Below, piece after piece: positions 2,728-8,347 of a DNA stretch of 33,124 nucleotides. The position numbers were made by a program, and so were the translations under genes. The first letter of the stretch is position 1, and every line of letters starts with the position of its first letter. The notes beneath the pieces are model-generated. The model was not told the origin of the DNA. It saw nothing but the letters and a program-made list of their open reading frames with translations, and did not search any database. Origin of the DNA: an uncultured Clostridia bacterium (GTDB taxonomy: Bacteria; Bacillota; Clostridia; Christensenellales; CAG-138); contig CAMVMM010000024.1 in the NCBI GenBank assembly GCA_947168565.1, positions 1 through 33,124 of the forward strand. The letters are read 5' to 3'.

Positions 2728-5571
2728 GTGAAAGAATACATTACCATAAAGGGCGCAAGGGAAAACAACCTTAAGAATATAACGCTCTCCATACCGAGGG
2801 ACAAGCTCATTGTTTTTACCGGGCTCTCCGGCTCCGGCAAATCCTCGCTTGCGTTTGAAACCATATTTGCGGAGGGGCAGCGGCGCTACGTGGAGTCGCT
2901 TTCCTCATACGCGCGCCAGTTTTTGGGTCAGATGGATAAGCCGGACGTGGATTATATCGACGGGCTTTCTCCCGCCGTGTCCATAGATCAGAAGAGCACC
3001 TCCAATAACCCGCGCTCCACGGTTGGAACCGTAACGGAGATAAACGACTATCTGCGCCTTTTGTATGCGCGCATCGGCATTCCGCACTGCCCGAAATGCG
3101 GCAGGGTGATAGAGCGCCAGAGCATAGATCAGGTTGTGGACAGGATCAGAAGGCTTGGCGAGGGTGCGAAGCTTCAGATAATTGCGCCCGTCATAAGGGG
3201 AAACAAGGGCGAGCACGTGAAGCTGCTTGAGCAGATCCGCAAGGACGGCTATGTGCGCGTTAAGGTGGACGGACAGGTATACGATATAAACGAGGTGCCG
3301 CCGCTTAAAAAGAACAAAAAGCATAATATTGACGTAATAGTTGACAGGATCGTTTTAAAGGAAGGCGTTGATATGCGCCTTACCGATTCGCTTGAAACCG
3401 CGTTTGCGCTCGGCGGCGGGCTTGCCAAGGCGGACGTGATAGGGGGGGAGGAGCTGCTGTTTTCGCAGAACTACGCCTGCCCGGACTGCGGGATAAGCAT
3501 CGAGGAGATGAGCCCCCGCATGTTTTCCTTCAATAATCCCTACGGCGCATGCCCCGCCTGCACGGGCCTCGGCTTTCAGGAGCAGATCGATCCCGCGCTC
3601 GTTGTTGCCGATCCCACAAAGTCGCTTCGCGCGGGCGCCATCTCCGCCATGGGCTGGGGCTCCGGCAATTCCGCAAGTGAAAACAGCATAATACTTATGT
3701 ATTTCCGCGCGGTCGCAAAGGAATACGGCTTTTCGCTGGATACCCCGTGGCAGGAGCTTTCCGAGGAGCATAGAAATATTATCCTTTACGGCACGGGCGG
3801 CAAAAAGCTTAAATTCGAATACGAGCGCGATTTCGGCAGCGGCAGCTTCATGTCCGCATTCGAGGGCGTTATTCCCACTATGGAGCGCAGATACCGCGAA
3901 ACGCAGTCCGAAATGATGAAGGACGCCTATCGGGAATACATCAGGCACACGCCCTGCCCGGTATGCCTCGGCAAAAGGCTGAAGCCGGAGGTGCTTGCCG
4001 TCACGGTCGGCGGCAGGTCGATCGCGGACGCTTCGGAGCTGCCGATTTTGGACGTGCTCGCGTTTTTGAGCGGGCTGGAGCTTTCCGAATCCGAGCGCAT
4101 CATTGCCTCGCGCATTTTCAAGGAGCTTACCGCAAGGCTTCAATTCCTTGCCGACGTGGGGCTGGATTATCTCACCCTCGCGCGCTCCGCGTCCTCGCTT
4201 TCCGGCGGCGAATCGCAGCGCATCCGCCTTGCCACTCAGATAGGCTCCGGTCTTGTGGGCGTGCTCTATATTCTTGATGAGCCGAGCATCGGTCTGCATC
4301 AGCACGACAACGCCAAGCTCATCGCCACCCTGAAGGGGCTGCGCGATCTTGGAAACACGCTTATCGTTGTGGAGCACGACGAGGAGACCATGCTCAGCGC
4401 CGATCATATAGTGGATATCGGCCCGGGGCCCGGCGTTCACGGCGGCAGAGTTGTGGCTCAGGGCACTGTGGAGGACATTATGGCGGAGCCGGAGTCCATA
4501 ACCGGCCAGTTTTTGAGCGGAAAGCGCAGAATAGAGATACCGCCCGAGCGCCGCATGGCGAAGGACGGTCATTGGCTGCGCGTGTTCGGCTGCCGCGAGC
4601 ATAATCTTCAGAATATCGACGCCGCCGTTCCGCTCGGCGTGTTCACCTGCGTAACCGGCGTTTCGGGCTCCGGCAAATCCAGCCTTGTGAACAGCATCAT
4701 TAAGGAAACCCTTTTAAGAAAGCTGAACCGCGCAAGAACGCATCCGGGCGAATATGACCGCATGGAGGGCGAGTGCTATTTGGACAAGGTGATAGATATA
4801 GACCAATCGCCGATCGGCAGAACCCCCAGGAGCAATCCCGCCACCTATACCGGCGTATTCGATCTTATTCGGGATGTGTTTTCCATCACGCCGGACGCGA
4901 AGATGCGCGGCTACGGCGCGGGCAGATTCAGCTTCAACGTTAAGGGCGGCAGGTGCGAATCCTGCCGGGGCGACGGAATTAAGAAAATCGAAATGCACTT
5001 TTTGCCGGACGTTTACGTGCCCTGCGAGGTGTGCCACGGCAAGCGGTACAACAGGGAAACGCTCGAGGTGCATTATCGCGGCAAGTCCATCGCAGATGTG
5101 CTGGATATGACCGTTGAGCAGGCGCTTGAGTTTTTTGCGGCGATACCCAAAATAGAAAAGAAGCTGCGCGCGCTCTATGACGTCGGGCTTGGGTATATCA
5201 AGCTTGGGCAATCGTCCACAACGCTTTCGGGCGGCGAGGCGCAGAGGGTCAAGCTTGCCACCGAGCTTGCGCGCAGGGATACCGGAAAAACCATATACAT
5301 TCTTGATGAGCCCACCACAGGTCTGCATTCGGCGGACGTTGAGCGGCTGCTTTCGATACTGCAAAGGCTTTGCTCCTCCGGCAGCACCGTGGTGGTGATA
5401 GAGCATAATCTGGACGTTATCAAAACCGCAGACTATATTATCGACCTCGGCCCCGAGGGCGGCGTTCGCGGCGGAAGGATAGTTGCCTGCGGCACTCCGG
5501 AGGAGGTTGCGCTTGCTCAGGGCAGCTACACGGGGCAGTATTTAAAGCAGATTCTCAATAATAATAAATAA
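2728..5571 (+). CDS. uvrA: UvrABC excinuclease subunit A
   Basis: The 947-residue product is the ABC-type ATPase dimer that finds helix-distorting DNA lesions and hands them to UvrB. Walker [10 protein letters not shown] is at residues 32-40 and a second one, GVSGSGKSS, near 645. ABC signatures LSGGESQR (about 490) and LSGGEAQR (about 832) are intact. Zinc modules include CPKCG near 115, CPDCG with CPACTGLG (about 250-280) and CESCRGDG with CEVCHGK (about 743-775). The start is GTG at 2728; the only upstream purine run is a weak GGGGG at 2712-2716, so translation may be helped by coupling to uvrB. All catalytic features are present and length is normal. Confidence 0.98.
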
Positions 5572-7011: not shown

Positions 7012-7090
7012 GGCGGTTCACAGCAAGCATATTGTAGATATCAGGTCCGCAGAGCCCAAGATAAAGAAAAAATGAAAAACCTTTATCGAT

Positions 7091-7118
7091 TATTCGCAAA
7101 ACTTGTCTTTTGCGAATA
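7091..7118 (+). other. 28-bp perfect palindrome with dif-like 11-6-11 geometry
   Basis: The left arm TATTCGCAAAA (7091-7101) and right arm TTTTGCGAATA (7108-7118) are exact reverse complements around the 6-base centre CTTGTC (7102-7107). Xer recombination sites are two 11-bp recombinase arms around a 6-bp central region. The inner AAAA/TTTT ends and outer GAA-like bases also resemble, from memory, the streptococcal difSL site next to xerS. The site is 59 bases upstream of the start codon of a XerS-like recombinase and contains its -35 box. Alternative: an operator for a dimeric repressor, or a transcription attenuator. Geometry is directly seen; recombination-site identity is inference. Confidence 0.6.
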
Positions 7119-7131
7119 GTTGTGTTATAAT
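7103..7131 (+). promoter_or_regulatory. Promoter of the tyrosine recombinase gene
   Basis: TTGTCT (7103-7108) and TATAAT (7126-7131) are spaced by 17 bases. Predicted start is near 7138, giving a leader of about 40 bases. The -35 hexamer occupies the centre of the 28-bp palindrome, so a protein bound there should block RNA polymerase. Confidence 0.65.
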
Positions 7132-7177
7132 AAGCCTGCCCCATCCGGCTGAATTCAATTTGATCGAGGTTCTGATT

Positions 7178-8347
7178 ATGAGCGACGATTATTCAAAGGA
7201 ACGAAATCAAAAATATGTTTTGAAGCTGCGCGAGGTGCTCAGCGAGCTTCCGCCGTGCTGCTCCGAGTTTTTTCGCGGCACCGAGCATACCACCGGAGCG
7301 CTCACGCGATACGGCTACGCGCTGGATCTGCGGCTGTTTATGCGCTTTCTGATGGAAACCGAGCTTTGCAGTCAGCTTCATTCAATAAAGCAGATCGACT
7401 ATGCGCTGCTCGACTCCGTCACGTCGGATCATATCGAGCGCTTTCTTGAATATATTTCATTGTATCCAAGCGAGGACGGCGCTGAAGAAGCCTCCGATTA
7501 CGTTTCAAACGGTGAGCGCGGCAAGGCGCGCAAGCTTTCCGCCGTTCGCGCTTTTTATAAGTATCTTTATAAAAAAGGCAGGATCTCGACCAATCCGCCC
7601 TCCCTTGTGGACGCGCCCAAGCTGCATGAGCGCGAGATAATCCGCCTTGAGCCGGATGAAATTGTTAAGCTGCTTGATCTTATCGAAAGCGGCGCGGGGC
7701 TGACCGACGCGCAAAAGCGCTTTCACGAGCAAACCAAAATACGCGACGCGGCGATAGTTACGCTTTTTCTTGGCACGGGTATGCGCATAAGCGAGCTTGT
7801 GGGCATAAACGTGGACGATATTGATTTTTATCAAAACGAGGTGCGGATCGTGCGCAAGGGCGGCAATCACGATGTGCTTGTTTTCGGCTCGGAGGTTCGC
7901 GGCGCGCTGCTTGAATATATGCTGAGGCGTGAGGGCGTTATCCCCGCGCCCGGGCATGAAAAGGCATTTTTCCTTTCGCTGCAAAAAAAGCGCATCACGG
8001 TGCGCGCGGTCGAGCAGCTTGTGAAAAAATACGCGCAAATTGCCGCTCCATTGAAAAGAATTAGCCCTCATAAGCTGCGCAGCACCTACGGCACCTCTCT
8101 TTATCGGGAAACGGGCGACATCTATCTTGTGGCGGACGTGCTCGGTCATAAGGATGTGAATACGACCCGCAAGCACTATGCCGCGCTTGCGCAGGACAGG
8201 CGGCGCGCCGCAGCGGAGGTCATAAAGCTGCGCGACGAAAAAAGCGCCGAGCTGCCAACCGAGCCGCAAAAGCCCGCTTCCGCTCAGCCGCTTTCAATCG
8301 AAGCGCATGGCGGATCGGAGGAAACGCAAAGCGGATCGGAGGATTAA
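7178..8347 (+). CDS. XerS-like tyrosine recombinase
   Basis: The 389-residue product has the full tyrosine-recombinase catalytic set: R203 in GTGMRISEL, K227 in VRKGGN, H298 and R301 in SPHKLRSTYG, H324 in VLGHKDVNTT, and nucleophile Y334 in RKHYAAL. Residues about 10-135 are a SAM-like N-terminal core-binding domain. A long segment before the catalytic domain (about 170-190) and the overall layout recall streptococcal XerS more than 300-residue XerC/XerD. The last 50 residues are Glu/Ala/Ser-rich and probably disordered. Start ATG 7178 has GAGG at 7166-7169; a longer frame from TTG 7103 overlaps the promoter and is rejected. No partner recombinase, transposase or phage gene is nearby, fitting a lone chromosomal Xer protein for dimer resolution. 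A mobile-element integrase is the alternative. Confidence 0.85.
   Translation: MSDDYSKERNQKYVLKLREVLSELPPCCSEFFRGTEHTTGALTRYGYALDLRLFMRFLMETELCSQLHSIKQIDYALLDSVTSDHIERFLEYISLYPSEDGAEEASDYVSNGERGKARKLSAVRAFYKYLYKKGRISTNPPSLVDAPKLHEREIIRLEPDEIVKLLDLIESGAGLTDAQKRFHEQTKIRDAAIVTLFLGTGMRISELVGINVDDIDFYQNEVRIVRKGGNHDVLVFGSEVRGALLEYMLRREGVIPAPGHEKAFFLSLQKKRITVRAVEQLVKKYAQIAAPLKRISPHKLRSTYGTSLYRETGDIYLVADVLGHKDVNTTRKHYAALAQDRRRAAAEVIKLRDEKSAELPTEPQKPASAQPLSIEAHGGSEETQSGSED

Follow-up and report, generated by a model that had tools for sequence, protein, structure and literature searches.

Xer systems that work with one recombinase have been reported in streptococci and lactococci, epsilon-proteobacteria, Legionellales and archaea (PMC5357621, PMC2731167, PMC3025954, PMC9765430). 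In the XerS/difSL system of streptococci and lactococci, a single recombinase of about 356 aa is described with a gene-adjacent site at the terminus (PMC5357621, PMC2731167); difSL is given as spanning 31 bp, of which 11 bp form the centre (PMC5357621), and PMC8138268 puts XerS in its Xer subgroup. The XerH/difH system of Campylobacter and Helicobacter is reported to have one recombinase, a site often near the gene and a hexanucleotide centre (PMC2731167). For the XerL/dif system of Legionellales, PMC9765430 describes one recombinase, a dif near the cumulative GC-skew maximum, long uninterrupted inverted repeats and a mobile element that uses the site, with a distance of more than 400 kb between gene and site in L. 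pneumophila. XerC/XerD, in contrast, are two recombinases sharing one terminus site of 28 bp with an 11-6-11 layout (PMC2731167 for the layout). According to PMC3025954, a canonical dif was predicted in 97 organisms of a group that we read as its Firmicutes set, a rate of 97%, the three failures being Clostridium and Lactobacillus genomes.

The Clostridia locus described here has one recombinase and an adjacent site at a presumed terminus, as in XerS/difSL and, for the hexanucleotide centre, as in XerH/difH, and shares with XerC/XerD/dif the 28-bp 11-6-11 layout. It differs from difSL in its 6-bp centre and arms of about 14 bp, from L. pneumophila in that site and gene, where both were found, mostly lie within a few kilobases, and from XerC/XerD in that one recombinase was found in its own order as far as searched. 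The XerL system resembles it in organisation, with a single recombinase and a dif of long inverted repeats near the skew maximum. No description of this Clostridia system was recognised in the literature, covered through titles and abstract beginnings and with most subscription journals outside the coverage, which is not proof of novelty. Its addition, as a putative variant, to the known one-recombinase Xer/dif systems is well supported by the sequence comparisons presented below.

A perfect palindrome upstream of a tyrosine recombinase gene

The window, i.e., the whole stretch of DNA that was analysed, comprises 33,124 nucleotides. As claimed in the original prediction, it contains a perfect 11-6-11 palindrome, TATTCGCAAAA-CTTGTC-TTTTGCGAATA, in which both 11-bp arms (7091-7101 and 7108-7118) match perfectly about the asymmetric centre CTTGTC (7102-7107). 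No other perfect 11-6-11 palindrome was found in the window, with 0.017 expected per first-order Markov sequence of the same length (1 in 60 draws). A search for further copies in the whole assembly (2.36 Mb, 54 contigs, 91.7% complete) gave this single copy at up to 3 mismatches and none for the reversed-pattern control. The 389-aa reading frame begins with an ATG at 7178, hence the gap between palindrome and gene is 59 bp, in agreement with the prediction, and position 8347 is the last base of the stop codon. The first-listed start, a TTG at 7103, is unlikely, since it falls within the palindrome.

Table 1. Coordinates of the site, the recombinase gene and associated features in the window
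Feature	Position	Strand	Basis
dif-like site, 11-6-11	7091..7118	.	sequence; single copy; sites of the same build near orthologs; skew maximum in relatives
Wider 14-6-14 footprint	7088..7121	.	1.1-1.5 bits of information at the three outer positions per side (98 distinct sites)
Xer-type tyrosine recombinase gene, 389 aa	7178..8347	+	PF00589, NCBIfam models, invariant residues, tree
Putative recombinase promoter: -35 TTGTCT (7103-7108), 17-bp spacer, extended -10 ending at 7131	7103..7131	+	read by eye

In the putative promoter (TTGTCT-17-TATAAT) the -35 hexamer sits within the site, and TATAAT is found at the equivalent place in 7/9 loci of the same genus. Because of this overlap the bound recombinase could repress its own gene, and autoregulation is likely in this genus; it would not be the sole role of the site, since the site is retained far from the gene in other genomes. 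Neighbouring genes of the window, as read from their frames, resemble the core genes uvrB, uvrA, rnhA, miaA, mutL and mutS. Near the contig end (30001-33000) the G+C content of the window falls from about 0.55 to about 0.45.

The protein matched Pfam PF00589 with 107.8 bits. Residues R203, K227, H298, R301, H324 and Y334, which we take to be the catalytic residues of the tyrosine recombinase family, were invariant in 28 aligned sequences. Besides the window recombinase just two further genes of the assembly matched PF00589; from their frames and surroundings we take both for phage- or ICE-type integrases. Within this range the recombinase can be called 'lone', as was proposed.

Placement among Xer recombinases

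Among the NCBIfam models, XerS (NF003462) scored highest with 191.9 bits, under its cut-off of 267. The XerC/XerD equivalog score was not reached either (151 bits vs. a cut-off of 335.15 for XerC and 141.8 vs. 329.6 for XerD). We then placed the protein in a maximum-likelihood tree of 56 proteins, rooted on XerD by choice, with 37 rows from the family of the window recombinase, six XerS rows over the cut-off, 6 XerD rows and 2 XerC rows, the latter labelled by inference without a profile test. The XerS rows were drawn from six genomes that belong to different classes of the phylum, presumably Bacilli; XerH and XerA were left out, and two rows had long branches (L210, 3.09; L199, 1.64).

The 37 family rows formed one clade (support 99/98), which was joined by three more distant proteins (99/91) and then by the XerS rows as the next group (99/94 for all together). 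The family thus stands beside XerS and is not nested within it, and the rows labelled XerC and XerD branch outside. In phmmer comparisons with the window recombinase (P0001), the six XerS proteins gave 73-107 bits and the XerC- or XerD-labelled rows 53-114 bits; as XerS proteins score no better than the others, pairwise scores alone cannot place the family. XerH scored 36 bits against P0001. Judged from profiles and tree, the recombinase falls outside XerS proper, in a clade of its own adjoining XerS, its nearest named group. The proposed membership in XerS/difSL was therefore not upheld, given the missed XerS cut-off, the separate clade and the 6-bp centre. Nor does the site match the difSL architecture, the 11-6-11 layout, which was assumed in the matrix and the alignment, fitting 103 ortholog loci. 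The best reading of the locus would be a one-recombinase Xer/dif system that is a sister type to XerS/difSL.

Distribution of the recombinase and of XerD

At E ≤ 1e-55, 393 genomes sampled from the class (Clostridia, to judge by the names of related loci) included 72 with the recombinase, from 48 of 220 genera, and each positive genome had one match. A defined site opens the way to testing these genomes for dimer resolution, for the terminus position and for dependence on FtsK. Within the genus of the window, 10 of 11 genomes had a match, the matchless one being 82% complete; one genome (G010) carries the gene in two pieces.

To follow up the claim of a single-recombinase layout, distinct from the textbook XerC/XerD case, 34 genomes were searched with the XerD profile. 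None of the 21 genomes of the same genus and order among them yielded an XerD over the curated cut-off, which 4 of the 34 passed. This cut-off is strict, being passed by 4/14 control genomes, so that raw scores matter too: the XerD-profile scores of the 21 genomes reached at most 173 bits vs. 298-368 bits for six genes taken as XerD. As far as tested with the XerD profile in these 21 genomes and with PF00589 in the assembly, the results favour the claim and give no indication of a canonical xerC/xerD pair with a conventional dif.

A window-type recombinase together with an XerD-like gene was observed in three genomes; the XerD score was above the cut-off in G026 and just below it in G219 (321 bits) and G140 (298 bits). 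Possibly, these genomes harbour two coexisting systems or have changed the partnership.

The site in relatives

The loci of 141 orthologs across Clostridia were scored with a position matrix, which was refined on part of the same loci; the threshold was the best score of reversed sequences. A site above this control was present at 103 loci, including 9/9 counted in the genus of the window, and none scored over the control at the other 38. Left out of the site counts were L014/L015 (from G010, with N runs beside the gene) and L016-L019; L010 and L020 apparently come from the same assembly (a 47,043-base contig with identical site and flanks in both), hence one is a duplicate in the counts. Conservation of the palindrome near orthologs, proposed as a check by alignment, was thus borne out.

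Every one of the 103 sites is upstream of the gene, with 55 at a distance of up to 300 bp and 29 beyond 1 kb. Site and gene are not a fixed module: they are 3-13 kb apart in G256, G362, G185 and G394 and on different contigs in G235 and G272. In G362, which is outside the 141-locus set, the site is 13 kb off on the downstream side of the gene.

Perfect symmetry of the arms, a further point of the prediction, is found in this genus but not family-wide, as it was seen in 16 of 82 distinct sites as read. At the inner positions 7-8 the arms agree in 39/103 sites (CA/CA 22, TT/TT 15, TA/TA 2) and differ in 64, so full symmetry is not general; the unlike half-sites could point to a partner in some species. 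Symmetry at position 7 falls short of the value predicted from composition (0.38 vs. 0.49), whereas most other variable arm positions exceed theirs (e.g., 0.83 vs. 0.69 at position 4), and matched outer changes were seen (ATTGCG.../...CGCAAT and TCTTCG.../...CGAAGA). Most relatives carry AAC before the 28-mer and GTT after it, the window copy retaining the GTT and reading GAT in place of AAC. This conserved AAC...GTT edge, with three extra positions per side, indicates a footprint of about 14-6-14. The centres vary. The suggestion that direction could come from the asymmetric centre is reasonable; none of the 103 is palindromic, though chance alone would give no more than one or two. Being almost symmetric about a 6-bp centre, a site of this kind might find use as a simple tool in the manner of Cre-lox.

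Pattern searches were extended to whole genomes. Across the class, 39 of 393 genomes matched and the reversed control matched 10. A looser search of 38 genomes, mainly without a strong nearby site, gave 14 with and 24 without a match, and says little because the control pattern matched 12/38. In the family of G185, 93 of 387 genomes matched a 32-base pattern (up to 1 mismatch), two of them (G840, G764) in two places. In G840 a 12-kb piece is present twice with 99.99% identity, which we read as an assembly duplicate. The two dif-like sites of G764 (L442, L443) have differing centres and are found on separate contigs, where the skew changes locally at either site; a recombinase of the family is encoded in just one of the two stretches, and contamination or two replicons may be the reason.

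GC skew around the site

As the original prediction called for the skew extremes around the locus, we determined GC skew in relatives. In the single-contig chromosomes G073 and G141 (20 stretches each), the skew turns from plus to minus at the site and back again roughly half a chromosome away; at higher resolution both have their cumulative maximum 1.3-1.4 kb off the site, towards the recombinase gene. In 24 chosen genomes, the skew to the left of the site exceeded that to the right in all 24, the plus-to-minus change was seen in 19, and the maximum lay within 1.5 kb in 17, although several of the stretches are merely 7-20 kb long, which makes closeness of the maximum easier. The maximum was 6 bp from the site in G185 (gene 6.3 kb away) and 85 bp in G362 (gene 13 kb away), and it was 17 bp and 322 bp from the site in G235 and G272, respectively, where the recombinase gene is on another contig.

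In the window, the skew is plus before and minus after the site, with the cumulative maximum 844 bp after it. The skew is weak in this genus: the sign changed in 5 of 9 genomes (no change in G003, G004, G007 and G008) and the maximum was within 1.5 kb in 4/9, lying 8.5 kb off in G006. The skew check thus came out in favour of a terminus position in the single-contig chromosomes and in most of the 24 genomes, and gave a mixed picture in the genus itself. At 55 named loci with short flanks, the plus/minus pattern was seen about the site in 35, vs. 38% at random positions. At the 25 loci where over 1 kb separates site and gene, the maximum had a median distance of 3207 from the site as against 2442 from the gene, although it fell within 500 bp of the site in 6 of these loci and within 500 bp of the gene in none.

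Proposed function and alternative explanations

The palindrome is very probably the dif site of a one-recombinase Xer system that resolves chromosome dimers. The recombinase encoded beside the site would bind both similar arms and exchange strands across the 6-bp centre. When sister chromosomes are fused into a dimer, the two copies at the terminus would recombine and release monomers. Where the arms are symmetric, the asymmetric centre would set the direction, and FtsK at the septum probably pairs the sites and times the reaction; such septal activation is plausible since a gene for FtsK/SpoIIIE is present, open over 1067 codons.

The same palindrome might be nothing but an operator over the recombinase promoter, a place where the recombinase or some other regulator binds and strands are not exchanged. 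The -35-like hexamer inside the site and the TATAAT at a fixed distance in the 7/9 loci of the genus agree with this, yet the six genomes in which site and gene are 3-13 kb apart (G256, G362, G185, G394) or on separate contigs (G235, G272) have kept both its sequence and the skew maximum, and none of 80 viral stretches with the site encodes the recombinase. A dif is more likely than a mere operator because the skew maximum is found at the site even when the gene is kilobases away or on another contig, and we consider the operator-only explanation very unlikely; it was rejected on account of the genomes with the site apart from the gene. Gain of a bona fide XerS/difSL system from another class, e.g., Bacilli, would account for XerS being the best NCBIfam model and the closest named group in the tree, for the similar size and for the adjacency of gene and site. 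Against this stand the score of 191.9 of 267 bits, the separate clade, not nested in XerS (99/98 for the family, 99/91 with the three relatives, 99/94 with XerS added), the P0001 scores of the six XerS proteins, which are no better than those of XerC/XerD-labelled proteins (73-107 vs. 53-114 bits), and the 6-bp centre vs. the 11 bp reported for difSL (PMC5357621). A bona fide XerS was rejected on cut-off and tree, and such an acquisition is highly improbable.

A tyrosine recombinase beside a short inverted repeat would also suit an integrase of a mobile element with its attachment site, as attachment sites often adjoin integrases. This explanation has a nearly negligible probability, considering that all 72 positive genomes have one match each at E ≤ 1e-55, that the window neighbours are core-like as read from frames, and that the site stays at the skew maximum even far from the gene. 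We therefore retain the dif site of a one-recombinase system as the preferred explanation.

Copies of the site in viral DNA

In a viral collection, 87 stretches matched the 32-bp extended pattern and none the reversed pattern. Of the 80 that were fetched, none has a gene of the recombinase family and one carries a different tyrosine recombinase; many come from contigs longer than the stretch, which may encode an integrase elsewhere. Large terminases identified in five stretches (PHROGs, Pfam) were used as seeds; a terminase-like frame was then found in 51/80 stretches, with the site up to 1.5 kb upstream of it in 45/80, 4 of these 45 being weak matches (21-28 bits). Viral and host centres mostly differ, as only 6 of the 80 share a centre with 40 sampled host centres. 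This speaks against integration at the host dif and in favour of recombination between copies in phages. Four further viral stretches share the centre of G235; in two of the four, which may be host DNA, a thermolysin-type peptidase is encoded close to the site. No terminus pattern was evident about the viral sites, the skew turning from plus to minus in 6 of the 51 with long enough flanks.

Phage P1 uses Cre-lox beside pac to close or resolve terminally redundant genomes. By analogy, it is conceivable, though we hold this with some doubt, that in tailed phages infecting gut Clostridia a copy of the host dif is placed just upstream of the large terminase gene, near the presumed packaging start, and that host Xer closes or resolves their terminally redundant genomes by phage-to-phage recombination and not by integration. 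The phages would then outsource the recombinase to the host. Copies beside the terminase suggest a little-known use of host chromosome machinery by tailed phages; this viral side was unexpected and merits separate study.

A prophage integrated at dif was considered for the genomes with two sites. No integrated case was found among the 93 site-bearing genomes of the family of G185, and the candidate was dropped: of the two genomes concerned, G840 is the assembly duplicate and the second stretch of G764 is without a family recombinase. Terminase searches of an annotated phage collection returned just relatives below 60% identity, six fetched regions of human faecal phage records contained no site, and among the plasmid matches listed (5000 records) none had at least 60% identity.

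Further palindromes of related build

Two dif-like sites, at 5528 and 11096, with centres unlike the chromosomal one were observed on a 12-kb contig of G026 (contig 57, L217). Replication-, primase- and resolvase-like frames were read on this contig, which is probably a plasmid or mobile element.

A related palindrome of the TATTCCYTAAA type was seen in G387 (site 991740) and G286 (site 2575827), at most 1.3 kb from the GC-skew maximum and 57-102 kb from the gene of a more distant sister recombinase; in G286 a canonical XerD is present in addition. Perhaps this palindrome represents a further dif type. In G360, a genome with a canonical XerD, two TATTCGCTAAA-N6-TTTAGCGAATA palindromes were observed (L219, 2642; L220, 3079), one of which lies about 60 bp before an XerC-like gene.
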